Position numbers and translations under genes: made by a program. Shown one piece after another: positions 3,303 through 35,104 of a stretch of 49,817 nt of DNA. The notes beneath the pieces were generated by a model that was not told the DNA's origin, searched no databases, and saw nothing but the letters and a program-made list of their open reading frames with translations. Location of the stretch: positions 7,937 through 57,753 of the forward strand of contig JAGQNA010000005.1 of assembly GCA_020428315.1 (NCBI GenBank), read 5' to 3'. The DNA is from Candidatus Saccharimonadota bacterium. GTDB taxonomy: Bacteria; Patescibacteriota; Saccharimonadia; Saccharimonadales; Saccharimonadaceae. Every line of letters starts with the position of its first letter. The first letter of the stretch is position 1.

Positions 3303-3692
3303 CTATTTTTTCGGTTTTGTAATATTTGGCTCACTGCCATAAAAAGGTAATGCTAGATGATCATTTTCGCCCGCCAGCAGCCTCTTCAATACTGTGTCAG
3401 CCCAGTTATCGCCTCGCCCAGAAACGATTGGTATATCTTGGTCTGAAGCAAGTGTATTCAGTATTGTCATCCCGATTCGTAAACCAGTAAAACTACCTGG
3501 CCCTGCAAATACACCAATTCCGGTTACCTCATAGACGGTCTTGTTATGAATTTTTAATTTATCGACTATAAACTTTAGTAAGCCATTTGATAATTCTCGA
3601 TCCGCTTGCCATACATAGTCAAACTGCTCATTAGTATGATTAATAAGAGTAAGCCGACACTCTCCAGTACTAGTATCTAGTAAAAGTATCAC
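3303..3692 (-). CDS. tsaB: TsaB, short form (tRNA t6A biosynthesis)
   Basis: 129 residues. The N-terminal actin-like lobe is clear: MILLLDTSTGECRLTL, then the hallmark GVFAGPGSFTGLRIG. TsaB partners TsaD and TsaE in making threonylcarbamoyladenosine on ANN-decoding tRNAs. Usual TsaB proteins are about 220-240 residues; here the C-terminal lobe is missing and the protein ends in a lysine-rich tail. The frame is clean up to its stop, so this looks like a short family variant and not a recent frameshift. It overlaps tsaE by 4 bases, implying translational coupling. tsaD is not in the window. Confidence 0.85.
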   Translation of the reverse strand: MILLLDTSTGECRLTLINHTNEQFDYVWQADRELSNGLLKFIVDKLKIHNKTVYEVTGIGVFAGPGSFTGLRIGMTILNTLASDQDIPIVSGRGDNWADTVLKRLLAGENDHLALPFYGSEPNITKPKK

Positions 3693-4153
3693 GTTGTGCC
3701 CTCCAGTAGTCGACGGCTGTTCTGGCCCCCTACCTTAAACGTCAACATTCGAGTTAATTCACTTGTTGGTGTAATCTCGACTGTTAGACGATCAGAAGGC
3801 AGCGTATTTTCGACAATATCACTCCACTCAAGAATTACAACCGCTCGACCATTTTGAATAGTTTCAGCAAGCTCATTCTGAATAATTCCAGGTTCAGTCA
3901 GTCGATAAAAGTCATAGTGAACTATTTCTATATTTTTACTAGTATCTGGTAGCTGATACCGGTTGCTTATCGTATACGTCGGACTTTGAATCTCATCTTT
4001 TACGCCCAAAGATTGAATCAAAGCCCTGGTAAAAGTTGTCTTACCCGCTCCAACGTCACCAATTAGTTCAATAATCTCACCTCCCTTAAGTGTCTTGGCT
4101 ATTTTTGACGCTAGACTAATCAGTTCTGACTCGGTGTAATTATGGGGCTTCAT
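3689..4153 (-). CDS. tsaE: TsaE, t6A biosynthesis ATPase
   Basis: 154 residues, the normal size. P-loop GDVGAGKTT at residues 32-40, the PTYTISNRY block (switch-like), and the ILEWSD motif near the end are all present. TsaE is the ATPase that drives cycling of the TsaB-TsaD complex. A TGG-TATAAT box lies 9 bases upstream of the ATG, with no Shine-Dalgarno. The promoter is back-to-back with that of the GNAT gene. Confidence 0.93.
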   Translation of the reverse strand: MKPHNYTESELISLASKIAKTLKGGEIIELIGDVGAGKTTFTRALIQSLGVKDEIQSPTYTISNRYQLPDTSKNIEIVHYDFYRLTEPGIIQNELAETIQNGRAVVILEWSDIVENTLPSDRLTVEITPTSELTRMLTFKVGGQNSRRLLEGTT

Positions 4154-4192: not shown

Positions 4193-4639
4193 ATGACACA
4201 GGAAATAACCATCTCAAACGCAACCAACTCTGATCTGACTAAGATTAGTGAATTACTGACCGAAATGTATGGGGAAACTAGGAATACCTCTGATCTTGAA
4301 CAACATTGGGAAAAATACTTTAACAATAACCCAAATCGTACTATTTTAGTGGCTCACGATAGTACTGCACAAAACAGTATTGTTGGTATGCTAATAATCA
4401 ATCTAGTATACAAACTGCCAAGAATTGAAGCTCGGATTGATGAAGTTATGGTTTCAGAGAAAGCTCGCGGAAAAGGGATTGGTACACTACTAATGGAACA
4501 TGCCTACGCTTGGTCCTCCGAACAAAATGCGACAATTATAGAATTTACTAGTAGACCCTCAAGGGTTGCTGCAAATAAATTATACCAAAAACTTGGCTAC
4601 GAACTACGCGAAACTAATGTATACCAAATAAGGATTTAG
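4193..4639 (+). CDS. GNAT-family N-acetyltransferase
   Basis: 148 residues from the ATG at 4193; an upstream in-frame ATG at 4142 is rejected because it lies before the promoter. The acetyl-CoA pyrophosphate loop is visible as VSEKARGKGIGTLLMEHA (R-G-x-G-[IV]-G), followed by the C-terminal NKLYQKLGYE typical of GNAT proteins. It transfers an acetyl group from acetyl-CoA to an amine; the substrate is unknown. It is the first gene of an apparent operon with the ATP-citrate lyase subunits (1-base gap), which make acetyl-CoA, so a shared metabolic role is possible (inference). RimI is a weaker alternative. Confidence 0.85.
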   Translation: MTQEITISNATNSDLTKISELLTEMYGETRNTSDLEQHWEKYFNNNPNRTILVAHDSTAQNSIVGMLIINLVYKLPRIEARIDEVMVSEKARGKGIGTLLMEHAYAWSSEQNATIIEFTSRPSRVAANKLYQKLGYELRETNVYQIRI

Positions 4640-4640
4640 A

Positions 4641-5771
4641 ATGTCACGAGTAAAACTATCAGAATACAGAGCGAAGCAATTACTAGACGCCTCATCGAGT
4701 GCAGTCTCTATACATCTGGATACTGCGTCGTCCGACATTGACAAGCTAGATAGCAGCCTTGCCTATGTTATAAAAGTTGATCAAGGTATAAAAAAACGTG
4801 GCAAACAGGGATTGCTTAAATTAAATATAGCTAAAGCTAACGCGTTAGCGGCTGTAAGGGAACTGTCATCTAAGGGTTTTGTAAGATTTATTGCCGAGCC
4901 AATGCTTGAACATGGCGACGACGAAGAAAAATACCTTAGTTTTGAGCGAACTAGAAATGGTATTGTAGCTAGCTTCTCGCATACAGGAGGGATTGATATC
5001 GAGGACAACCCCGAAAGCGTTAATCAACTAGACCCTCAAGACCTACCTCTACCTAAGGATTTTATCGACAAAATACTGACGATAATAGACAAGGAGCATA
5101 TCACATTTCTTGAAATTAACCCTCTAGTAGTTCGAGATGGAAGCTGTATTTTACTTGATGCAGCCGTATTGGTGGATAGTGCCGGTGAATATCAGGCTTC
5201 ATGGACGAGTGACGACATCGTAGAAGCAAGAACTCTTACCGAAGCTGAGTCGACAGTATCTGTAATGGACCAAAATTCACCTGCTGCATTTTCATTTCGG
5301 GTGTTAAATCCTAATGGTGCATTATGGATGCTACTATCTGGTGGTGGCGCGAGCATTACGATTGCCGATGAAGCTGCCAACCAAGGTAAAAGTCATATCA
5401 TTGGGAATTACGGAGAGTACAGTGGTGGCCCAACAGCCGAAGAGACTTACTTATATACACTAGAGGTCATAAAACAAGCCCTAGCATCAGAGGCTGAACC
5501 ACTCGCAATTATTGTTGCGGGAGGAGTTGCAAATTTTACAGACGTTAAAAAAACGTTTAAGGGTATAATTCAGGCACTGGGTGAAAGACTTGAGGATCTC
5601 CAGAGTAAAAAGGTTCGTGTTTATGTACGACGTGGTGGCCCAAATGAAACTGAAGGCCTAGCACTGATAAGAGAATTCTTAGATAGAAATAATCTACTCG
5701 GTGCAGTACATGGCTCAGATATGGTATTGACTGAGGTAATTAATGAAGCATTGGAGTATTTAGATGCTTAA
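4641..5771 (+). CDS. aclB: ATP-citrate lyase, small (ATP-grasp) subunit
   Basis: 376 residues. The sequence follows the N-terminal part of ATP-citrate lyase: KVDQGIKKRGKQGLL (ATP-grasp), FIAEPMLEHG, TGGIDIED, FLEINPLVV with the metal-binding Glu-Ile-Asn, then the CoA-ligase-like half with LLSGGGASITIADEA, NYGEYSGGPTAEE and VRRGGPNETEGL. NYGEYSGGP separates it from ordinary succinyl-CoA synthetase SucC. With the next gene it should convert citrate, CoA and ATP to acetyl-CoA and oxaloacetate. It overlaps the large-subunit gene by 8 bases. The bacterial convention (small = AclB) is used; plants name the subunits the other way round. Confidence 0.87.
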   Translation: MSRVKLSEYRAKQLLDASSSAVSIHLDTASSDIDKLDSSLAYVIKVDQGIKKRGKQGLLKLNIAKANALAAVRELSSKGFVRFIAEPMLEHGDDEEKYLSFERTRNGIVASFSHTGGIDIEDNPESVNQLDPQDLPLPKDFIDKILTIIDKEHITFLEINPLVVRDGSCILLDAAVLVDSAGEYQASWTSDDIVEARTLTEAESTVSVMDQNSPAAFSFRVLNPNGALWMLLSGGGASITIADEAANQGKSHIIGNYGEYSGGPTAEETYLYTLEVIKQALASEAEPLAIIVAGGVANFTDVKKTFKGIIQALGERLEDLQSKKVRVYVRRGGPNETEGLALIREFLDRNNLLGAVHGSDMVLTEVINEALEYLDA

Positions 5772-7533
5772 TATAGATAAAATTCGTAATAACCCAGGAA
5801 ACATCCTAGCTCTTGGTAGCTATCGACCGGGCTATCAAGCCGTGCTTGACTTTGACAGACTATGTGGACGAAGTGAGCCATCGATTGTCTGTATTATTAC
5901 AGCAGGTAAACGATTCGAAAAATACTTCTGGGGAAACGGCGAGGTACTTATACCCTGCTACCCCACTCTAGATGATGCCCGCAGGAATATCGGAAATATA
6001 GATTGGCTTCTCAATATGTCATCTGGTAGACGTACTCTTGCAAGTACACAAGCTTTTTTTGAAACATTTCCAGACGCACTGGGGGCCCACTTGTTCGCAG
6101 AAGACGTCCCTGAAAAACATGCAATTGAGATATATGATAAATACCAGGAAAATGGAAAGTGTATTATTGGACCGGCCGGTGTCGGTTTAATTGTGCCTGG
6201 TAGCCTTAAATTAGGGGTTGTCGGTGGTGTTGACTGGCGACAGATACAAGCATCTCGCCTACATCTACCTGGAAACGTAGCTATTTTATCTGCCTCTGGT
6301 GGCATGATAAATGAGATAATCACAATGACTGCACGCAGCCAGCATGAAATTAGTTTTGCACTTTGCTTCGGAGGCGATCGCTGGCCAACAACCCAACCCT
6401 ACGACGCATTTCTGGCTGCAGAAAAAGACCCAAATACAAAATATATAATTTACTACGGTGAGCTTGGCGGTCAAGATGAATATAAATTAGCAAACCTACT
6501 AAAAAGTGGCCAAGTAACTAAGCCTGTTATTGCTTACATTGCTGGCATAATAGGCGAAACCTTCGACCAGCCCGTTCAATTTGGTCATGCTAAAGCTCTT
6601 GCAAGCGAAAAAAGTGAGACAGCTAGTGCGAAGCGACAAGCCCTGAAAGAAGCAGGGGTACAAGTAGCTAACTCAATGACCGAATTTAGCGATATAATTA
6701 CCAATATCCCTCAAAACAGCCATCCTCAGTCTTCAGATGTAAATTTAGCTAATCGTCAACACAGTCTATTTAGTTCAACAATCTCTACCGAAGATGATAA
6801 AGGCTATGCATTTACCGGCTTGCTATTACAAGACTGGGCAAGTAAACAAGATATCGCTCTCCAAATAACAAGCGCTTTGCTTGGTCGACAGCCAAAGTCA
6901 ACACTAACCTCTGACTTAGTACGTACGATTTTTCTCTTATCGGTAGATCATGGACCTCAAGTCTCTGGAGCACTAAATACAATTATTACAGCACGTGCGG
7001 GTAAAGGTATAGTAGACAGTCTCGCTGCTGGGCTCATGACAATTGGACCACGTTTTGGTGGCGCAGTTAGTGGCGCAGCTCGAGAATGGTTTGATGGCGC
7101 CAACGCCGAGATTACACCTAGTGAGCTCGTAGAGGAGCGTGCGAAAGCACGACAATACATACAAGGGATTGGTCATAAGAAATATCGTCTTGATCTACCA
7201 GACCCTCGTACGGCTATCCTCGCGGACTTTGCAAAGTCACTTAGTGCAAGTCAGTATTTTACATTTGCTAAAGAGGTCGAAGCAATCACAACTACAAAAA
7301 AAGGTAACCTTATACTTAATGTCGATGGTCACATAGCTGCCTTAATGCTAGACGTATTAGAGAACGAAGAAAAGATCTCAAAAACTGACATCAGCAGAAT
7401 GATTAACGCAGACTTTTTCAATGCATTGTTTATTATACCCCGCATCGTTGGCTTTACCGCCCACTACTTAGACCAAAAACGCATAGATGAAGGCCTCTTT
7501 CGCCTACCAGATGATGCGATACTACTAGCCTAA
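5764..7533 (+). CDS. aclA: ATP-citrate lyase, large subunit
   Basis: 589 residues, close to the roughly 610 of bacterial AclA. The first half is a SucD-like CoA-ligase domain with the phosphohistidine site QFGHA (His275) followed by SETASAKRQALKEAGV, a signature of this family. The second half is the citrate-synthase-like lyase domain: SVDHGP (His396), GIGHK (His471) and NLILNVDG (Asp521), then HYLDQKR and the C-terminal EGLFRLP. Spacing of His396, His471 and Asp521 (75 and 50) nearly equals that of human His900, His975 and Asp1026. Deviations: GHAK for GHAG and GIGHK for GIGHR. Catalytic residues are otherwise present, so an active enzyme is likely. Confidence 0.88.
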   Translation: MLNIDKIRNNPGNILALGSYRPGYQAVLDFDRLCGRSEPSIVCIITAGKRFEKYFWGNGEVLIPCYPTLDDARRNIGNIDWLLNMSSGRRTLASTQAFFETFPDALGAHLFAEDVPEKHAIEIYDKYQENGKCIIGPAGVGLIVPGSLKLGVVGGVDWRQIQASRLHLPGNVAILSASGGMINEIITMTARSQHEISFALCFGGDRWPTTQPYDAFLAAEKDPNTKYIIYYGELGGQDEYKLANLLKSGQVTKPVIAYIAGIIGETFDQPVQFGHAKALASEKSETASAKRQALKEAGVQVANSMTEFSDIITNIPQNSHPQSSDVNLANRQHSLFSSTISTEDDKGYAFTGLLLQDWASKQDIALQITSALLGRQPKSTLTSDLVRTIFLLSVDHGPQVSGALNTIITARAGKGIVDSLAAGLMTIGPRFGGAVSGAAREWFDGANAEITPSELVEERAKARQYIQGIGHKKYRLDLPDPRTAILADFAKSLSASQYFTFAKEVEAITTTKKGNLILNVDGHIAALMLDVLENEEKISKTDISRMINADFFNALFIIPRIVGFTAHYLDQKRIDEGLFRLPDDAILLA

Positions 7534-7565: not shown

Positions 7566-9344
7566 ATGCGTATTGCCGACAGAACTATGGAGGCGCTCCT
7601 AAAACAGGGTGGGACGCTGACCGATGAAGACCTGGCTGAGCTTGTTGAACAAGCCTCACGTTCAAGACGCCCCTTGCAGGAAGTGGCTCTTCAAAAAGAG
7701 GCCATTAAAGAGTTAGATCTTGCGAAAGCATTTGCCGAGTACATCAATATCCCGTTTGTTTCAGTTGAACCAAAGGACATTCCATCAGATGTTCTGAGTA
7801 GAATACCTGAAAGAATTGCCAGGCAATATAACGCGATACTCTTTAAGGTTGATAACGATGGTAAATGTCACTTGGCCATGGATGATCCAGATGATATCCA
7901 AGCAGTAAACTTTATCGAAAAACAAATTGGAAATAATATAAAACTATATCTGGCTACCAGGGAGAACATCCTTACTTGTCTTGAAAATTATTCTGGTGAT
8001 GTTGATAAGAAGTTGAATGACGTAATTGACGTTCAGCGTGAAGATGATGCCTCAAGCCAAAAAGTTACCGAAGATGACATCGCGGAAGATTCACCGATCG
8101 CTAAAACAATCAATCTTTTACTTGAGTATGCGATCAAATCAAGCGCAAGTGATATACACATAGAACCACGTGAAGGCTACGTACAAATACGTTATCGTGT
8201 CGACGGCGCCCTAAAAGAGGTAAACCGACTACCTAGAAACGTACTTGGCGCACTGGTAAGTCGAATTAAAATTCTTTCAAACCTGAAGATCGATGAACGT
8301 CGTGTACCACAAGATGGGCGCTTCAAGATCAGGCTCGGTGGTAAACAATACGCATTTCGTGTTTCAACTCTACCAATTGCCGATGGAGAAAAAATTGTTA
8401 TGCGTATTTTGAACGAAAGCAACCAAGCAATCACTCTTGAAGAATTAGGCTATTGGGGTAAATCAATTCGTACTATCAAGGATGCACTAACTGAATCGAA
8501 TGGTATTGTGTTAGTCACTGGACCTACAGGCTCCGGAAAATCTACTAGCCTTTTTAGTGTATTAACGATGCTAAATCAACCCGATGTTAACATATCAACT
8601 ATCGAAGATCCTGTAGAGTACAAAGTACCAGGTGTAAACCAAACACAAACCAACGCTAAAGCAGGGATGACATTCGCTAGTGGCTTGCGGGCCCTATTGC
8701 GGCAAGACCCAAATATCATAATGGTAGGTGAGATTCGAGACGGGGAAACAGCGAATCTTGGCGTACAAGCGGCTCTAACGGGCCACCTAGTATTTAGTAC
8801 GCTCCACACCAATAACGCTGCAACTTGTTTACCACGACTGCTTGACATGCAAATTGAACCATTTCTAATAGCTAGTACTGTAAGGGCAGTAGTCGGGCAG
8901 CGCCTCGTACGCCGTTTATGCATGAATTGTCGTCAACAATACCAGCCAGATGATATCGAAATAAAAAGCTTCTATGAGTCATTCAAGATTAGTCCCGAAG
9001 AGCTTTCAGCGCTTCATAAGCTTGAAGAAGAGGCTGCAAATGATAACATTGGCGGAGATACTCCGCTTGGCACTAATGATCAAACTATTGTTAATCTTTT
9101 CAAACCGTCTGATCACGGCTGCGATGAATGTCATGGTAGCGGATTTAAAGGCCGAGTTGGAATTTACGAAGTCTTAGGTAACTCACCAAAGATTGAGAAA
9201 TTAATTATGGCAAACGCTACTGCAACCGATATTCAAAATCAAGCGATCGAAGAAGGTATGGTCACCATGCAGGTCGACGGCATTATTAAAGCGTTCAGGG
9301 GTATCACGACTCTTGAAGAAGTACTAAGGGCAACGAAAGAGTAA
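7566..9344 (+). CDS. pilB: PilB, type IV pilus extension ATPase
   Basis: 592 residues. An N-terminal MshEN/GspE-N domain (about 1-150) precedes the ATPase. Walker A GPTGSGKST is at residues 319-327, Walker B is IIMVGEIRD (about 384-392), and the His box TGHLVFSTLHTNNA follows. A zinc-type tetracysteine is formed by CMNC (452-455) and CDEC (519-522). PilB powers assembly of pilin subunits into the fibre at the inner membrane. It opens a tight operon with pilC (3-base gap). No retraction ATPase pilT or prepilin peptidase pilD is in the window. Confidence 0.95.
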   Translation: MRIADRTMEALLKQGGTLTDEDLAELVEQASRSRRPLQEVALQKEAIKELDLAKAFAEYINIPFVSVEPKDIPSDVLSRIPERIARQYNAILFKVDNDGKCHLAMDDPDDIQAVNFIEKQIGNNIKLYLATRENILTCLENYSGDVDKKLNDVIDVQREDDASSQKVTEDDIAEDSPIAKTINLLLEYAIKSSASDIHIEPREGYVQIRYRVDGALKEVNRLPRNVLGALVSRIKILSNLKIDERRVPQDGRFKIRLGGKQYAFRVSTLPIADGEKIVMRILNESNQAITLEELGYWGKSIRTIKDALTESNGIVLVTGPTGSGKSTSLFSVLTMLNQPDVNISTIEDPVEYKVPGVNQTQTNAKAGMTFASGLRALLRQDPNIIMVGEIRDGETANLGVQAALTGHLVFSTLHTNNAATCLPRLLDMQIEPFLIASTVRAVVGQRLVRRLCMNCRQQYQPDDIEIKSFYESFKISPEELSALHKLEEEAANDNIGGDTPLGTNDQTIVNLFKPSDHGCDECHGSGFKGRVGIYEVLGNSPKIEKLIMANATATDIQNQAIEEGMVTMQVDGIIKAFRGITTLEEVLRATKE

Positions 9345-9347
9345 ATT

Positions 9348-10562
9348 ATGACAACTTTTTCATATCAAGCAATAAAAAAAGATGGGTCGAGCGTTTCTGG
9401 AAATGTCGAAGCAAGCGAAAGAGCAACCGCAATTGAAACATTAACTAAGCAAGGACTCAGACCACTGACAATCAATGAGAAGAAATCTGGACCAGTCAAG
9501 CTTTCTCTTGGTGGCAAAAAAGTAAAATCTGACGATCTTGTAATCTTTACTCGAGAGCTTAGCGCAATGGTTAGTGCTGGGGTCCCCTTGCTGCGGTCAT
9601 TAAACTCCCTCGAGGAGCATAGTGAAAACCGTGCCCTACAAACTATTTTAAAGGATATCGTTTCCGACGTTGAAGGAGGTGCACAGCTAGCCGATGCATT
9701 AGAAAAACATCCAAGAACATTCAATAACGTTTACGTCAATATGATACGAGCTGGCGAGGCTGCTGGTATCCTCGATGATATCCTGAAACGAATAGCCCTG
9801 CAGCAAGAGAAAAACGCAACAATTAGAAAAAAGATTAAGAGTGCGATGACTTACCCAATGGTACTCATTAGTATTACAATCCTTGCCTTCTTTGGCCTGA
9901 TGATTTTTGTTATTCCTCAAATTGGTAAAATTATAAAAGACTTGGGTGGTGAAGATGCAAAACTACCAATGCTTACCACTATCATGTTGAATATCAGCAG
10001 TATGATTATTTCCTACTGGTGGATTGTTTTGCCGATGCTAGCTGGCTCTGTTTTTATGCTCTTGCGATTTATTGGCACCCCGAAAGGTCAGAGAATATTT
10101 CATAATATAATTTTGAAGCTGCCTGGGATTAATTCAATTATACGAAAAGTGGCTGTCGCTCGTTTTGCGAGAACTTTCTCAGCTCTAATGGGTGCGGGTG
10201 TCTCGGTACTTGAATCATTAGACGTTACCGCTCATGCAATTGGCAATAAGCTCTACGAAGAAGCTTTAATAGATGCAATCGAGCAAGTAAAGCAAGGTGC
10301 TGAATTATCCAAGATTATTGAAAAGAATAAACTTTTTCCATCAATTGTTGCTCAAATGTTATCTGTTGGAGAGGAGACAGGCCAAACTGATCAAGTACTC
10401 GTAAAGGTTGCCGACTTCTACGAGGAAGAAGTAGATGTCGCTATCGATGGCTTAAGCTCAATTATTGAACCGGTTATGATTGTTACCATGGGTGCCATGG
10501 TAGGATTAATCGCTGCTAGTGTTATGATGCCTATTGCCAACTTATCAAATACAATCAAGTAG
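9348..10562 (+). CDS. pilC: PilC, type IV pilus platform protein
   Basis: 404 residues, the normal length. Two T2SF domains with the repeated pattern FTRELSAMVSAGVPLLRSL and FARTFSALMGAGVSVLESL, each followed by a helix-rich stretch and a membrane hairpin. The C-terminal domain carries SVGEETGQTDQVL and ends with a membrane helix near 375-395. PilC is the inner-membrane platform turned by PilB. It follows pilB by 3 bases. Confidence 0.95.
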   Translation: MTTFSYQAIKKDGSSVSGNVEASERATAIETLTKQGLRPLTINEKKSGPVKLSLGGKKVKSDDLVIFTRELSAMVSAGVPLLRSLNSLEEHSENRALQTILKDIVSDVEGGAQLADALEKHPRTFNNVYVNMIRAGEAAGILDDILKRIALQQEKNATIRKKIKSAMTYPMVLISITILAFFGLMIFVIPQIGKIIKDLGGEDAKLPMLTTIMLNISSMIISYWWIVLPMLAGSVFMLLRFIGTPKGQRIFHNIILKLPGINSIIRKVAVARFARTFSALMGAGVSVLESLDVTAHAIGNKLYEEALIDAIEQVKQGAELSKIIEKNKLFPSIVAQMLSVGEETGQTDQVLVKVADFYEEEVDVAIDGLSSIIEPVMIVTMGAMVGLIAASVMMPIANLSNTIK

Positions 10563-10595
10563 TCATTTAAGATAGTCAAACCGCTAATGTTTTAG

Positions 10596-10601
10596 TATAC
10601 T
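10596..10601 (+). promoter_or_regulatory. Possible internal promoter before pilM
   Basis: TATACT 24 bases upstream of the pilM GTG, followed by GGAAGGA at 10607-10613, the likely ribosome-binding site. Unlike most starts here this one has a short leader. Confidence 0.4.
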
Positions 10602-10625
10602 ATATTGGAAGGAATATAAATAAGA

Positions 10626-11678
10626 GTGCCAAAATTATACTATAAAGATAAACCAGTCATCGGCATAGACATCAATCAAACAGGCATTAAGGTAATGGCG
10701 GTTGATGTTAAGAAGTGGCTTGTCAGCGCCTACGGCTCAATTGATTTAGATCCTGCAAAAGCAACAAAATCCCTCGAGGGAGATGGCACATATATCAAAG
10801 AGAGTCTGGCAGGTCTAATAGAGAATAATTTGGTTGGTAATCTACCTAGCAACCATGCAATCATGAGTGTGCCTGCTAGTAATTCATTTACACGAGCTTT
10901 CTCGATGCCAATTGAAATAGCAAAAAATATCGATAGTGCAATCGAGCTTGAAATTGACCAGTATATTCCGATCCCTGCTGCTTCTTTGTACGTTGACTAT
11001 GAGGTTATCAGTCAAAGCAAGGACAAGCTGGCTATATCAATGAGTGCTGCGCCAAAAAAACTTATTGATAACCTCATAGGTGCCGCGGAGGGCGTCAATC
11101 TTCGTGTCTGTGCGGTTGAACCAAGCACAAGCTCTGTTGCACGCTTACTAAACCGTACTGAAGACGGTCATCTACCAACAGTAATTATCGATATTGGACC
11201 AGCCTCGACAGATATCGCTATTCTTGATGACATCATAAAGGTAACTGGAAGCATAAGTCAAGGTGGCAACACCTTTACACTTGATATCGCTAAAAAACTT
11301 GGCGTCTCGCTTGAGAAGGCGCACCAATTAAAAATTATAAATGGCCTTTCCTATGGGCCACGTCAAAAAAAATTACGTGCTGCTCTTGAGCCCAGCTTAA
11401 ATGCAATTCTTAATGAAACTAGAAAAGTGATCCGCTATTACAATGAAAGGCTAGATACAAAAACTAAACTGGAGCAAGTATTAGTAGTGGGTGGAGGAAG
11501 TAATATTCCTGGGATCGGAGATTTTTTTACAAACTCCCTAGTTATGCCGGCCCGTGTAGCTAGCCCATGGCAAAAACTAAATTTTGGTAAATTGCCTCAA
11601 CCTGCAAAACAATTTCGACCACGATATATCACTGTAGCTGGTCTAGCTTCGATAGACCCAGAGGAAGTAAGACAATGA
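10626..11678 (+). CDS. pilM: PilM, actin-like pilus assembly protein
   Basis: 350 residues, starting at GTG. Actin/FtsA-type ATPase features: phosphate-1 loop VIGIDINQTGIKVMAVD, the central IIDIGPASTDIAIL (phosphate 2) and VLVVGGGSNIPGIGDFF (adenosine site). PilM is cytoplasmic and binds the N-terminal tail of PilN. The INLLP motif that PilM normally binds is present at the start of the next gene. Overlaps pilN by 4 bases. Confidence 0.93.
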   Translation: MPKLYYKDKPVIGIDINQTGIKVMAVDVKKWLVSAYGSIDLDPAKATKSLEGDGTYIKESLAGLIENNLVGNLPSNHAIMSVPASNSFTRAFSMPIEIAKNIDSAIELEIDQYIPIPAASLYVDYEVISQSKDKLAISMSAAPKKLIDNLIGAAEGVNLRVCAVEPSTSSVARLLNRTEDGHLPTVIIDIGPASTDIAILDDIIKVTGSISQGGNTFTLDIAKKLGVSLEKAHQLKIINGLSYGPRQKKLRAALEPSLNAILNETRKVIRYYNERLDTKTKLEQVLVVGGGSNIPGIGDFFTNSLVMPARVASPWQKLNFGKLPQPAKQFRPRYITVAGLASIDPEEVRQ

Positions 11679-12259
11679 TCAACCTATTACCTGACAATAA
11701 CCGAAAAGAAATACACGCTGGTTATGCAAATTATATACTTATTCGTTATATTTTTATGGTATTCATCGCGATAATTGTCCTTGCTAGCATAATAGTTATG
11801 GCCTACGTTGTTCAATTAAGCATGCATGCCTCAGCAGAGGAGCGGGTCGCAAGTGCAGAAAAAGACGCAGCTAGGTTTTCATCCACAGTTAGTGAATCAG
11901 AAAAATTTAAATCCAACCTAGCAACAGCAAAACAAATACTAGATAAGGAAGTTAAATATTCAAAACTCATACTAATGATAGCTGAGGTGCTACCTAAAGG
12001 CGTCTATATTGATAGTCTTACGTTAGATTCAAAATCACTCGGTACGCCGATTACACTATCGGCACATACTAAGACGATGAAAGATGCTGTCAATCTTAAG
12101 TCAAGATTCGAAAATAACAAAAAATTATTCTCAGATGTACATTTTCAATCAATAACCCCACAGGAAACATCAGATAATAACTCAGGTGGATCTACATCAG
12201 CCAACACCCATCCAATTCAGGTGCTGATCAATGTAACTATAAATAAAGGAGTGATGTAG
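11675..12259 (+). CDS. pilN: PilN, pilus inner-membrane alignment protein
   Basis: 194 residues: cytoplasmic MINLLPDNNRKE tail (the PilM-binding motif), one membrane helix (about 25-48), a coiled-coil (about 55-90), then a ferredoxin-like periplasmic or extracytoplasmic domain ending in a Ser/Gly/Asn-rich linker. It overlaps pilM by 4 bases and abuts pilO directly (TAG then ATG). Confidence 0.9.
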   Translation: MINLLPDNNRKEIHAGYANYILIRYIFMVFIAIIVLASIIVMAYVVQLSMHASAEERVASAEKDAARFSSTVSESEKFKSNLATAKQILDKEVKYSKLILMIAEVLPKGVYIDSLTLDSKSLGTPITLSAHTKTMKDAVNLKSRFENNKKLFSDVHFQSITPQETSDNNSGGSTSANTHPIQVLINVTINKGVM

Positions 12260-12916
12260 ATGAAGTCTGCCAAGATGAATGCTCAGCTCTTTCGTATTGT
12301 TCTAGTGTTATGTCTTATTGCATTAATTGGTCTTGGGTCTGCTGGATTCTACTTTGTACAAAATCTACTTAGGACTAAATCACAAGAAATTAGTAAACTA
12401 AATAGCGAGGCATCAGCTAGCGAGGAGAAGCTGAGTGCACTAAGTAAGATGAAAGTTTATTTAGACGAACATAAATCAAGCCAGGACAAGGCAGAACATA
12501 TCGTTGCAGAGAGTAAAAAATATAAGTATCAAAATGATATTATCGATTCACTTTCAAAAATTGCTGCTGAAAGCGGCATAAATATAGTTAGTTATACTTT
12601 TGTTGAAGGAGCTTCAGCAGCGCCTACAGCTGGCACGACACCGGCACCTGGGCCTGCTACATCTCCAACAAGTCCAGCTGGAAACGCAGATTCTGCTACC
12701 CCAGTATCAACGTTGAAGTCAAAGTCTGTTACCGCTGCTATAAAAAGCCCTGTTCCCTACAAGAATCTTATTACTTTTATCCGTAAGATTGAGGGAAATA
12801 GTAAAAAAATGCAGATATCAAACGTTAGTATAAGTCGATCAGCAGCTGACAGCAAACAAGCCAATAACCAGGCAGTGAGTTCCGACTCATTCTTGATAGA
12901 GGTGTACGTAAGGTAA
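12260..12916 (+). CDS. pilO: PilO-like pilus assembly protein
   Basis: 218 residues: one membrane helix (about 12-34), a coiled-coil region (38-70), a small alpha/beta domain, and an Ala/Pro/Thr/Ser-rich insertion of about 35 residues near 112-150 that splits it. Position right after pilN and the topology make PilO the best call. The low-complexity insertion is unusual for PilO. Confidence 0.8.
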   Translation: MKSAKMNAQLFRIVLVLCLIALIGLGSAGFYFVQNLLRTKSQEISKLNSEASASEEKLSALSKMKVYLDEHKSSQDKAEHIVAESKKYKYQNDIIDSLSKIAAESGINIVSYTFVEGASAAPTAGTTPAPGPATSPTSPAGNADSATPVSTLKSKSVTAAIKSPVPYKNLITFIRKIEGNSKKMQISNVSISRSAADSKQANNQAVSSDSFLIEVYVR

Positions 12917-31987: not shown

Positions 31988-31996
31988 GAGTGCTAA
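31970..31996. promoter_or_regulatory. CIRCE operator (dnaJ)
   Basis: TTAGCACTC, 9 bases, GAGTGCTAA: both arms match the CIRCE consensus exactly. HrcA binds it. It overlaps the last codon and stop of the upstream FAD oxidoreductase gene. Confidence 0.95.
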
Positions 31997-33660
31997 AATT
32001 CTTTCCTGATATGAGAGAAGCTGTAGTCCCAATCGGCATCAGTCTTCTTACGGGGGTTAAACATCCCGTCTTTATCAAAAATAGTCTTAATCTCCTTCAT
32101 GATTCCTAATACCTTTTTACCATACATGGCCTCGAGCCATGGTCCACGAACTAAGCCATCGTTATGCTCACCGCTAAGTGACCCACCGTACTTCAGAACA
32201 AGGTTATTAACTTCCTTCATTGCTGGTAATATTTTCTTACGTTCACCCTTTAGTTGAATGTTCATAAGAGGGATGATATGAAAATTACCATCACCCATAT
32301 GGCCAGCAATGGTTGCAAATAATTTATACTTTTTAATAATTTTACGAAGTTTGGGTAGGAATTCAGGCATATATTCTGGTCTCACGATTAAATCATCAAT
32401 GAATGGTGCGGTATGTTTGTCTTTTACGCTACTTCTGAGTATCTGGAAACTATACCGACGCATAATCCAAAACTTCTCACCTTTTCGATCAGTTGGTGCT
32501 TCCTCAAAACCACTTATACCGTACTGCTTTGCGTCAGAGGCAAGCTCTTCATGTAAAGTACGGATCTTGCTAGCGACCTCATCTGGTGAGTTACCCTTAA
32601 TTGAAACCATAAGGATAAGTCGAGGCATACCTTTAAATAGAAGTAGAGCTTCAGGAATTAAACTAAATAGTAATTTTATAAACTTAATTGGTCCTAAAAA
32701 ACCAAGGAATTTTGGCATAAATTTCATAGAAAGAAAAACTGTATTATCGTCAAATGACTCAAATCGTGACGGCTTATGTTCAACTACTTTTTCTATTAAC
32801 TTACCGAGATTTTTCATGTCTTTAATAAATATCACAAGCAGACCCTCATCACTTCGTGCGCTAGTCATACCAAACTTTATGTTAGTCGTTAAGCCTAATG
32901 TCCCCTGTGAACCAGTTATTAGCTGTGTCAGATCAAAAATACCAGTTTCTCGATTCCAAACGCGCCACAAATGATAGCCTGTCGAATCTTTGCTGACATT
33001 CGGCTTGGCAGCCTGAATTACATCATAATGCTTATCAAGTAAATCAAAGGTTTGCTTGTAAACCTTACCTTCGAAGTCATTTTGTGCCATTTTTTTAACT
33101 AGCTCACGTTTATTTAGTGGCTTAACTACCCGCTTTACGCCATCTGCAAAAACAACCTCTAGCTCTTTAACGAAGTCCTCTACTTTACCAAATTCGATTG
33201 ATTTTTCGCCACCAGCATTATTATTTACCATACCACCGACTGTACAAAGGTCACGTGAGGCTGGATATGTCGGCATTAGTACGCCTTTTTTCTTAGCCTG
33301 ATCATCAAGATCTTTGAACATAACACCTGGTTGCATCTCACTAGTCATTTTCTTGTTGTCAATCGCTTTGATTGCAGTAAAATATCGTTTAAAATCGACA
33401 ATCACAGACTCATTAATAGCACCGCCGCTCATATCGGTACCGGCTCCGCGACCAGTTAGCGAAAGCCCAGGAATTTTCTTCTTGTATTTTACCGCAAGGC
33501 TAACTAACACTTCTACATCCTCGTCTGTCCGTGGAAAAACTACAGCTTTTGGCATTAGTTCAAACATGCTAGCATCATGCGAGTAAAGCTCTAACGTGTC
33601 TTGATTTGTTTCTATATCCCCTTTAAATGAGCCCTCTAGCTCTGTAAGAAATTCTTTCAT
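31993..33660 (-). CDS. FAD-binding oxidoreductase (GlcD / D-lactate dehydrogenase type)
   Basis: 555 residues. N-terminal FAD_binding_4 (PCMH) domain: AVVFPRTDEDVEVLV, LTGRGAGTDMSGGAI, and YPASRDLCTVGGMVNNNAGG. The C-terminal FAD-oxidase domain has GHMGDGNFHIIP and SGEHNDGL, the latter giving metal and substrate ligands. Such enzymes oxidise D-2-hydroxyacids (D-lactate, glycolate, 2-hydroxyglutarate). No Fe-S partner (GlcF) or fused Fe-S domain is present. AATAAT with TGC upstream ends 6 bases before the ATG. It sits inside the heat-shock block. Confidence 0.88.
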   Translation of the reverse strand: MKEFLTELEGSFKGDIETNQDTLELYSHDASMFELMPKAVVFPRTDEDVEVLVSLAVKYKKKIPGLSLTGRGAGTDMSGGAINESVIVDFKRYFTAIKAIDNKKMTSEMQPGVMFKDLDDQAKKKGVLMPTYPASRDLCTVGGMVNNNAGGEKSIEFGKVEDFVKELEVVFADGVKRVVKPLNKRELVKKMAQNDFEGKVYKQTFDLLDKHYDVIQAAKPNVSKDSTGYHLWRVWNRETGIFDLTQLITGSQGTLGLTTNIKFGMTSARSDEGLLVIFIKDMKNLGKLIEKVVEHKPSRFESFDDNTVFLSMKFMPKFLGFLGPIKFIKLLFSLIPEALLLFKGMPRLILMVSIKGNSPDEVASKIRTLHEELASDAKQYGISGFEEAPTDRKGEKFWIMRRYSFQILRSSVKDKHTAPFIDDLIVRPEYMPEFLPKLRKIIKKYKLFATIAGHMGDGNFHIIPLMNIQLKGERKKILPAMKEVNNLVLKYGGSLSGEHNDGLVRGPWLEAMYGKKVLGIMKEIKTIFDKDGMFNPRKKTDADWDYSFSHIRKEF

Positions 33661-33703: not shown

Positions 33704-35104
33704 CTATACAACCGAACTTGCACCCTTTTCATATAGCTCAAGCTGCACATCACCGTCTGCCCATGCATCAAGAATAGGCTGACTAGCTCTCCAGGACTCA
33801 AGTACCTCCTCGCTTGTTGCAAACAAGGTCCTATCCCCATGCAAGGCATCTGCAATGACCCTTTCATACGCATCTGGATATTTTAGACTTTTTCGTTCTT
33901 TATAGTAAAAATCAACCGGTATCGTTTCAACTGCCTCACCAAAGCCTGGTACCTTCACTCGAACATCAAGAATTACACCATCTTCTGGCTGTATTTTAAC
34001 TGTCAGTATATTTGATGCTTCCTCAGGTCGCTGACGACTCTTAAATTCAACGACAATTTCTGTCAGCTTTTCATTCATAGCCTTGCCAGTTTCTAACTTA
34101 AGAGGAACGCCGCGCCAACGATCGTTATCAATCGAGAAAATTGCCGATGCATAGGTCTCTGTGATCGACTCTGTATTATCTACTTCTTCTGTATATCCCC
34201 TATACTGCCCGCGGACACTTTGACTTACCATCATTTCTCTCCGTGGTGCCTGTATTTGTTCCAGTACTGATACTTTTGCCCGATGAACTGAATCAGTATT
34301 TATTGATTCTGGCATTTCCATGGTAATTAATGCCAGAATTTGCATTAAATGACTCTGTATGACGTCCCGGAAGGCCCCTGTCTGCTCATAGAAGTCAACA
34401 CGGTTCTCTATACCAATTGACTCAATAGCTCTAATTGTAATACTTTTTATGTACTTATGTCCCCAAGATGCCTCTAGTACTGGATTTTGAGACCTCAATA
34501 TTAAGATATTCTGGACAGTTTCTTTTGCCAGATAATGGTCAATTCGATAAGTCTCGTGCTCTTTGAATGATTTTAAAATATCACCAATGAGTAATTTGGC
34601 AGATTTTATATCATAACCAAATGGCTTTTCAATCAATAAGCGACTCTCGACATTAGCATGCTGACAGCCTTTATTTAGGCCAGCCGCACCAATCATACTC
34701 ACAAGTGGACTAAATGCACTAACTGGAACTGCTAAATAAAATAACCGACTCAAGCAAACTGACACCTTATCTTCAATTCTATCCAGTGTATCTCTTAACT
34801 TCTTAAAGTCGGACTGTTCATCTAAGTCCATGACTTGGATTGTTAATCTATCTTTTAGCCAATTAATTGTATGCTGATCAATCTTTCGTCGACTGGAGGT
34901 AAGATGCTCTTCAAGGTCATCGATCAGCCTATCTACGGTCAGCTCCCGTCTTGAAACTCCAACAATATATGTATGCTCTGATATGATATTAGCCTTGGCT
35001 AAGTTGTACAATGCAGGTAGCAGTTTTCGTCTGGATAAATCACCGCTAACACCAAAAATTGTAATAATCGCGGGCTCTCTTTGCTCGTGACTGCTTTTTA
35101 CCAT
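33704..35104 (-). CDS. zwf: Glucose-6-phosphate dehydrogenase
   Basis: 466 residues, slightly shorter than the usual 480-510. NADP-binding GVSGDLSRR at 18-26, EKPFG at 159-163 and the active-site RIDHYLAKE at 187-195. It makes NADPH and 6-phosphogluconolactone, entering the pentose phosphate pathway. TGG-TATAAT lies 6 bases before the ATG, so it is transcribed separately from dnaK despite the 92-base gap. Confidence 0.96.
   Translation of the reverse strand: MVKSSHEQREPAIITIFGVSGDLSRRKLLPALYNLAKANIISEHTYIVGVSRRELTVDRLIDDLEEHLTSSRRKIDQHTINWLKDRLTIQVMDLDEQSDFKKLRDTLDRIEDKVSVCLSRLFYLAVPVSAFSPLVSMIGAAGLNKGCQHANVESRLLIEKPFGYDIKSAKLLIGDILKSFKEHETYRIDHYLAKETVQNILILRSQNPVLEASWGHKYIKSITIRAIESIGIENRVDFYEQTGAFRDVIQSHLMQILALITMEMPESINTDSVHRAKVSVLEQIQAPRREMMVSQSVRGQYRGYTEEVDNTESITETYASAIFSIDNDRWRGVPLKLETGKAMNEKLTEIVVEFKSRQRPEEASNILTVKIQPEDGVILDVRVKVPGFGEAVETIPVDFYYKERKSLKYPDAYERVIADALHGDRTLFATSEEVLESWRASQPILDAWADGDVQLELYEKGASSVV

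Follow-up and report, generated by a model that had tools for sequence, protein, structure and literature searches.

ATP-citrate lyase (ACL) in its two-subunit form has been described in the Gracilibacterium 'Detritibacteria gulfii', in a report that calls the enzyme 'rarely detected in CPR' (candidate phyla radiation) and that predicts external UDP-N-acetylglucosamine (UDP-GlcNAc) (PMC6851277). The gene pair aclAB is also enriched in groundwater metagenome-assembled genomes (MAGs) of Candidatus Saccharimonadia (PMC12577380), where the accessible part of the report gives it only as an enriched function, with no pathway role or genomic context. Here we analyse an aclBA operon in a 49,817-nucleotide stretch of DNA from a Candidatus Saccharimonadota bacterium (the whole stretch is called the window), which has the gene pair and the class in common with these MAGs and, like 'Detritibacteria gulfii', belongs to a CPR cell whose central metabolism is very limited. 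The original prediction made from this DNA regarded ACL as unexpected in such a genome, which is overstated in view of the two reports; what is new is the genomic setting and the separate clade, whereas the enzyme itself was already known from such cells. In the literature searched, with preprints and most subscription papers outside its scope, we found no paper linking CPR ACL to UDP-GlcNAc or GlmS, and no report of citryl-CoA synthetase/lyase loci in CPR. The locus addresses the open question of where acetyl-CoA originates in CPR cells that have next to no central metabolism, and our explanation, for and against which we see equal weight, is that ACL makes it from imported citrate for amino-sugar acetylation.

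Identity of the enzyme

The genes of the operon and the motifs of the enzyme are as follows (window coordinates, all on the + strand).

4193..4639, +: GNAT-family N-acetyltransferase, first gene of the operon (Pfam Acetyltransf_1 64 bits; AlphaFold GNAT fold, pLDDT 88; homologous GNATs adjoin aclBA in other CPR)
4641..5771, +: aclB, ATP-grasp and citrate-binding subunit of ACL, 376 aa (Citrate_bind 169 bits; PDB ACLY 169 bits; top fold matches human ACLY)
5764..7533, +: aclA, CoA-ligase subunit with fused citrate-synthase-type (citryl-CoA lyase) domain, 589 aa (Pfam; PDB ACLY 375 bits)
5406..5432, +: NYGEYSGGP motif of aclB (N256, Y257, S261, G262 and P264 invariant in ten homologues)
6298..6315, +: GGMINE of aclA, Glu184, equivalent to human Glu599 (Glu in 81/81 aligned AclA)
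6577..6591, +: QFGHA of aclA, His275, equivalent to the phosphorylated His760 of human ACLY (His in 81/81)
6943..6957, +: VDHGP of the aclA citrate-synthase-type domain (Asp in 81/81, His in 80/81)
7165..7179, +: GIGHK of aclA, His471, equivalent to human His900 (His in 81/81)
7318..7329, +: NVDG of aclA, Asp521, equivalent to human Asp1026 (Asp in 81/81)

Judged from its sequence, the aclBA product is almost certainly ACL (EC 2.3.3.8). One subunit combines ATP-grasp and citrate-binding domains, and in the other a CoA-ligase domain with the catalytic histidine (H275) is fused to a citrate-synthase-type domain, with Pfam scores of 169 bits for Citrate_bind (cut-off 26.8), 94 for Citrate_synth_N (83), 72.5 for Citrate_synt (27) and 54.5 for Ligase_CoA (24.5). 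AclB is shorter than its human counterpart (~425 aa) and scores 24.7 with the generic ATP-grasp_2 model, under the Pfam cut-off of 29.5, although it passes the ACL-specific ATP-grasp model. Searches of PDB sequences matched AclA to human ACLY at 375 bits (E 6e-111), to Methanosaeta ACL at 336 and to the best succinyl-CoA synthetase at 82, and matched AclB to human ACLY at 169 bits and to no succinyl-CoA synthetase chain at E 0.001. The pair is thus nearer to ACL by match score, and a misannotated succinyl-CoA synthetase is rejected.

The catalytic roles of Glu599, His760, His900 and Asp1026 of human ACLY are established, and their equivalents in AclA are E184, H275, H471 and D521. Conservation was assessed in an alignment of 81 proteins including the human one, whose row was taken from the PDB-search alignment. 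AclB residues K45, R53, E86, N160, D173, N298, T300 and R330-R331 are likewise invariant among ten homologues. The operon had been predicted to be a complete two-subunit ACL with diagnostic motifs NYGEYSGGP, QFGHA, VDHGP, GIGHK and NVDG; both parts hold, as the open reading frames (ORFs) lie at the coordinates given, both subunits match ACL along almost all of their length, the Pfam and PDB matches are far beyond chance and all five motifs occur in the order in which human ACLY has them. The predicted structure of AclB retrieved human ACLY first, at a global TM-score of ~0.6, a low value that is probably due to domain placement in a model with a pTM of 0.55.

The reaction would convert citrate, CoA and ATP to acetyl-CoA, oxaloacetate, ADP and Pi. 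AclB would activate citrate, His275 of AclA would relay the phosphate, and the resulting citryl-CoA would be split by the C-terminal domain of AclA. With a gap of 1 base between the GNAT gene and aclB and an overlap of 8 bp between aclB and aclA, the three genes form a tight operon.

Metabolic context in the host genome

The host genome is Saccharibacteria-type and comprises 815,932 bases in 69 contigs, with an estimated completeness of 98%. We searched all of it with E. coli protein queries and protein family models. Its sole citrate-synthase-fold gene is aclA. Queries with E. coli gltA, acnB, icd, sucABC, sdhAB, frdA, aceF, pflB and pyruvate:ferredoxin oxidoreductase (PFOR, ydbK-type) gave no match in this genome, nor did those with pta, ackA, acs, citCEF, fabBDFH, adhE and atoABD. 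Other catches were limited to a transketolase-type ORF with aceE, other flavoproteins with lpd and aclA itself with sucD; PF00676 gave a transketolase-type match only. Thiolase, CoA-transferase and Ldh_1-type malate dehydrogenase were also not found in the host genome. The acnB, icd, acs and pta negatives are meaningful, because these queries do match homologues in other loci. For the families tested, the 816-kb genome therefore has no tricarboxylic acid (TCA) cycle enzyme, as had been supposed of a reduced genome, and no citrate carrier of the types sought. Since alternative sources were not found, ACL probably runs as citrate cleavage and, on this gene content, would be the main or only source of acetyl-CoA. 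ACL as compensation for a lost pyruvate dehydrogenase (PDH) proved not to be discriminating: PDH E1 is complete in just 1 of 45 sampled genomes, ACL-bearing or not.

CoaBC, CoaD and CoaE were not detected in the host genome, and CoA itself is therefore presumably imported. The cell would thus make acetyl-CoA while apparently being unable to make CoA. The genome encodes GlmS, a phosphohexomutase, MurA, MurC-G, MraY, FtsW and two sugar nucleotidyltransferases. No hexapeptide-repeat protein was found in it at E 0.1, whereas all control genomes do contain such a protein. The genome thus lacks the acetyltransferase half of GlmU and, as it makes peptidoglycan, would need a different acetyltransferase; the hexapeptide domain is missing in most related Saccharimonadia too, with or without ACL. 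Four Acetyltransf_1 GNATs are encoded, that of the operon and three others. In a separate observation, a 454-aa ORF (L092:1569-2930, contig C66) joins an N-terminal GNAT domain and a part that, from reading the sequence only, resembles diaminopimelate epimerase.

Also present are a malic-enzyme homologue (L114:978-2114; below the cut-off of the NADP-dependent malic enzyme model, at 338 bits), cytochrome bo3 subunits (L028:7228-10119) and an NDH-2-like protein (L112:1780-2958). The last two form a short, aerobic chain of electron transport in a genome of 816 kb.

Gene neighbourhoods in relatives

We counted neighbours up to three ORFs away on each side of 51 patescibacterial aclBA loci and of 28 ACL loci from other phyla. 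Genes for glmS, glmM, glmU, yvcK, murA or murB occur near 15 of the 51 patescibacterial loci vs 1/28 non-CPR loci (a murB-like gene), and a GNAT near 20 of the 51 vs none of the 28 (Fisher p 0.007 and 3e-5, both ignoring relatedness). The GNAT that the original prediction had placed first in the operon is therefore a recurrent partner. TCA-type genes, nearly all acn or icd, show the opposite pattern: they lie near 18 of 28 non-CPR loci, while acn or icd is near 0/51 patescibacterial loci, one of which has a sucC-like neighbour (Fisher p 5e-11, again ignoring relatedness). One locus with an outside-type ACL (G039, L138), which has an isocitrate-dehydrogenase-like ORF upstream by translation reading, was left out of the count. 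Most of these adjacencies had been seen before counting, clade members are non-independent, and the named loci were chosen by similarity to the window.

Family models confirmed representative neighbours (GlmS 745 bits, GlmM 443 against a cut-off of 447, YvcK 213, MurB and GNATs). The arrangements differ between lineages: glmS follows aclA in one saccharibacterial group and glmM in another, murB lies near aclA in Levybacteria, yvcK is nearby in one Woesebacterium and one Uhrbacterium, and in other CPR glmS or glmS-yvcK-GNAT precedes a split enzyme. YvcK is GlmR, a direct activator of GlmS in B. subtilis (PMC7525490). Linkage to glmS, glmM, glmU, glmR and mur genes, as in a cluster for UDP-GlcNAc and peptidoglycan precursors, is thus seen in many CPR relatives and not in the window.

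An evenly drawn sample of the phylum gave a second view. Among 380 Patescibacteria, 24 carry the citrate-binding domain over its cut-off: 13 as two-subunit ACL (the host genome included) and 11 in split form, usually with a citryl-CoA synthetase pair ahead of a separate gene that resembles the C-terminal part of AclA. One such gene, when tested, scored 247 bits on the NCBI citryl-CoA lyase model (cut-off 212). Of the 18 genomes in this sample that have both genes, seven, from 5 families, have a glmS start within ~4.5 kb of the citrate-binding match (ACL or citryl-CoA synthetase), against ~0.2 expected.

Three further features of these loci were noted. Split citryl-CoA synthetase and citryl-CoA lyase loci (L150-L154 in G114, G040, G099, G323 and G124) in several cases adjoin glmS and yvcK. 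In two relatives an Acs or Pta homologue lies directly upstream of aclB (L146:5538-7409 and L180:4808-5830), tying the locus to acetyl-CoA. Lastly, aclA of UBA6040 is split over two overlapping frames (L148:8692-10475, the same as L200) in what looks like decay or an assembly error; this relative is also without full-length glmS.

Phylogeny and probable transfer

Trees were built by a quick method with SH-aLRT support, and an approximately unbiased (AU) test was run on the quick tree. CPR AclA sequences fall in a single main clade (SH-aLRT 99-100), to which archaeal, Aquificota, Cloacimonadota and human ACL do not belong. Outside-type ACL occurs in a few other patescibacterial genomes, as separate acquisitions. 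The nearest named relatives of the window are Candidatus Saccharibacteria, at 65-68% identity in AclA. For both subunits, the window group of eight Saccharibacteria-type sequences falls within the CPR clade as sister to a Kaiserbacteria/Paceibacteria/Uhrbacteria group and not to other saccharibacterial ACLs, and a constraint uniting saccharibacterial AclA was rejected (p-AU 0.0009). This sister relationship points to ACL transfer between CPR lineages. Transfer had been raised as a possibility in the original prediction, and it gains support from both trees and the AU test, as exchange between CPR lineages; an origin in eukaryotes is rejected, since human ACLY clusters with the archaeal enzymes and the window sequences fall in the separate CPR clade. 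Several members of the sister group have a GNAT just upstream of aclBA, so that GNAT and aclBA may have been exchanged among CPR lineages as one cassette; this is a tentative suggestion only, since the GNATs there are of more than one type.

Proposed role and alternatives

The identity and residues of the enzyme, the operon, the gaps in the genome and the neighbourhoods in relatives can all be read from sequence, and on these we base the following proposal. Citrate taken from the host or the surroundings would feed an active ACL that stands apart from TCA and reverse TCA cycles alike. The acetyl-CoA would be spent on N-acetylating an amino-sugar phosphate on the way to UDP-GlcNAc and peptidoglycan, possibly by the GNAT of the operon, and oxaloacetate may be recovered as pyruvate. 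Because of the relatives' neighbourhoods and the intact Mur pathway, we consider the chances about even that amino-sugar acetylation for peptidoglycan takes most of the acetyl-CoA. That the operon GNAT performs this acetylation is a more tentative suggestion, with the protein as a candidate only. We extend the proposal across CPR as a speculation that we think rather doubtful: citrate cleavage, by aclBA or by citryl-CoA synthetase plus lyase, would be the dedicated and sole acetyl-CoA supply for amino-sugar acetylation, the ACL-paired GNAT would replace the GlmU acetyltransferase, and host citrate would end up in the N-acetyl groups of the episymbiont's wall. Should ACL be the acetyl-CoA source of these cells, citrate would be a specific nutritional tie of Saccharibacteria to their hosts. 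Through its linkage to glmS, glmR and mur genes, a gene that has so far just appeared in MAG inventories would gain a concrete and testable purpose in making wall precursors, and ACL would have a further context, beyond the reverse TCA cycle and the supply of cytosolic acetyl-CoA in eukaryotes.

Several observations weigh against an amino-sugar role fed by citrate. First, CitMHS, 2HCT and CitT carriers were sought in the host genome and none was found, leaving the citrate supply unexplained, and the absences on which the argument draws rest on a single assembly of 69 contigs. Second, the window ACL adjoins a GNAT and pilus genes, with glmS on another contig, and some of the genomes in which glmS adjacency was counted had earlier given rise to the hypothesis. 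Third, GlmS is present in 6 of 7 Saccharimonadia with ACL and also in 11 or 12 of 21 without it, so that amino-sugar synthesis can run without ACL; strict ACL-GlmS co-occurrence, tested in Saccharimonadia, was not found, and one genome (G278) with murB close to ACL is without a complete glmS. Lastly, sequence and fold comparisons of the operon GNAT fit many GNAT types and single out no amino-sugar substrate: human GNA1 was matched at E 0.001 among many other GNATs, and in the structure search C. parvum GNA1 came at rank 28, so we discarded the structure as a pointer to substrate.

Those same structural neighbours, which include polyamine acetyltransferases and HPA2, are consistent with a different destination, in which the operon GNAT uses acetyl-CoA on a protein, a polyamine, an RNA or a small molecule that has no connection with amino sugars. 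The GNAT lies next to aclBA within the operon, its homologues recur by aclBA, and there are three other GNATs in the genome; it may thus act in protein or small-molecule acetylation, as originally predicted. It would leave unexplained, however, the glmS, glmM, yvcK and murB genes by ACL in lineages without an adjacent GNAT, which point more to amino-sugar and peptidoglycan precursors, and we regard it as a minority reading. Less probable still is citrate catabolism, in which scavenged citrate would be used for carbon and redox, with oxaloacetate passed to pyruvate by malic enzyme and acetyl-CoA as a by-product. A citrate-fed metabolism has been proposed for the ACL-bearing Gracilibacterium (PMC6851277), and the malic-enzyme homologue, cytochrome bo3 subunits and NDH-2-like protein would suit one here, but ACL costs ATP and neither Pta, AckA nor another ATP-recovering route was found, nor an Ldh_1-type malate dehydrogenase or a citrate carrier of the families tested. 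ACL working in reverse, so that acetyl-CoA and oxaloacetate would yield citrate and ATP, is very improbable: the reaction is reversible in principle and oxidative use of ACL is known from Desulfobacter, but we found no source of acetyl-CoA to feed it and no aconitase or isocitrate dehydrogenase (IDH) to use the citrate. Membership of the CO2-fixing reverse TCA cycle, from which ACL is best known, or contamination binned into a CPR genome can, on the present data, be dismissed as having next to no probability, given that no other cycle enzyme was found (no acnB, icd, PFOR-type ydbK, frdA or sdhAB match in the host genome), that the GNAT-aclBA gene order is common to other Saccharibacteria-type records and that the sequence lies in the CPR clade.

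Surroundings of the operon

The operon is flanked as follows.

3689..4153, -: tsaE, divergent, upstream boundary of the operon (Pfam TsaE 111 bits)
7566..12916, +: type IV pilus-type genes (pilB, pilC, pilM, pilN and pilO-like, named by reading translations), context outside the enzyme

An earlier ATG for the GNAT at 4142 would overlap the divergent tsaE. A gap of 32 bp separates aclA from pilB on the same strand, no terminator-like site was found on the + strand between aclA and the pilus genes, and the nearest named relatives have pilus genes of matching sizes and order downstream of aclA. ACL and pilus genes may thus be co-transcribed. A promoter scan was uninformative. Elsewhere in the window, an FAD-linked oxidase resembling D-lactate dehydrogenase (31993-33660) adjoins a glucose-6-phosphate-dehydrogenase-like gene (33704-35104), both by translation reading only.

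Comparison with known systems

Domain order, the fused citrate-synthase-type domain and the catalytic residues checked are common to the window enzyme and the ACLs of known structure, namely AclBA of Chlorobium limicola (6hxj) and of Methanosaeta/Methanothrix (6hxi, 6znw) and human ACLY (6hxh, 3mwd), with AclA 37% identical to the human enzyme over aligned positions. The window ACL differs from these in forming a separate deep clade, in its shorter AclB and in the neighbours of its clade, which are amino-sugar, GNAT or pilus genes and not aconitase or IDH. The succinyl-CoA synthetase SucCD belongs to the same superfamily but is without the citrate-synthase-type domain. In 'Detritibacteria gulfii' the nearest proteins to ACL are archaeal and two putative citrate transporters are encoded (PMC6851277), whereas the window ACL belongs to a CPR-specific clade and no carrier of the tested families was found in its genome. 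Citryl-CoA synthetase and citryl-CoA lyase, as in Hydrogenobacter thermophilus (6hxq; lyase 6hxp), carry out the same net reaction as split genes, with homologues in other CPR; the window encodes the fused two-subunit form of the enzyme.

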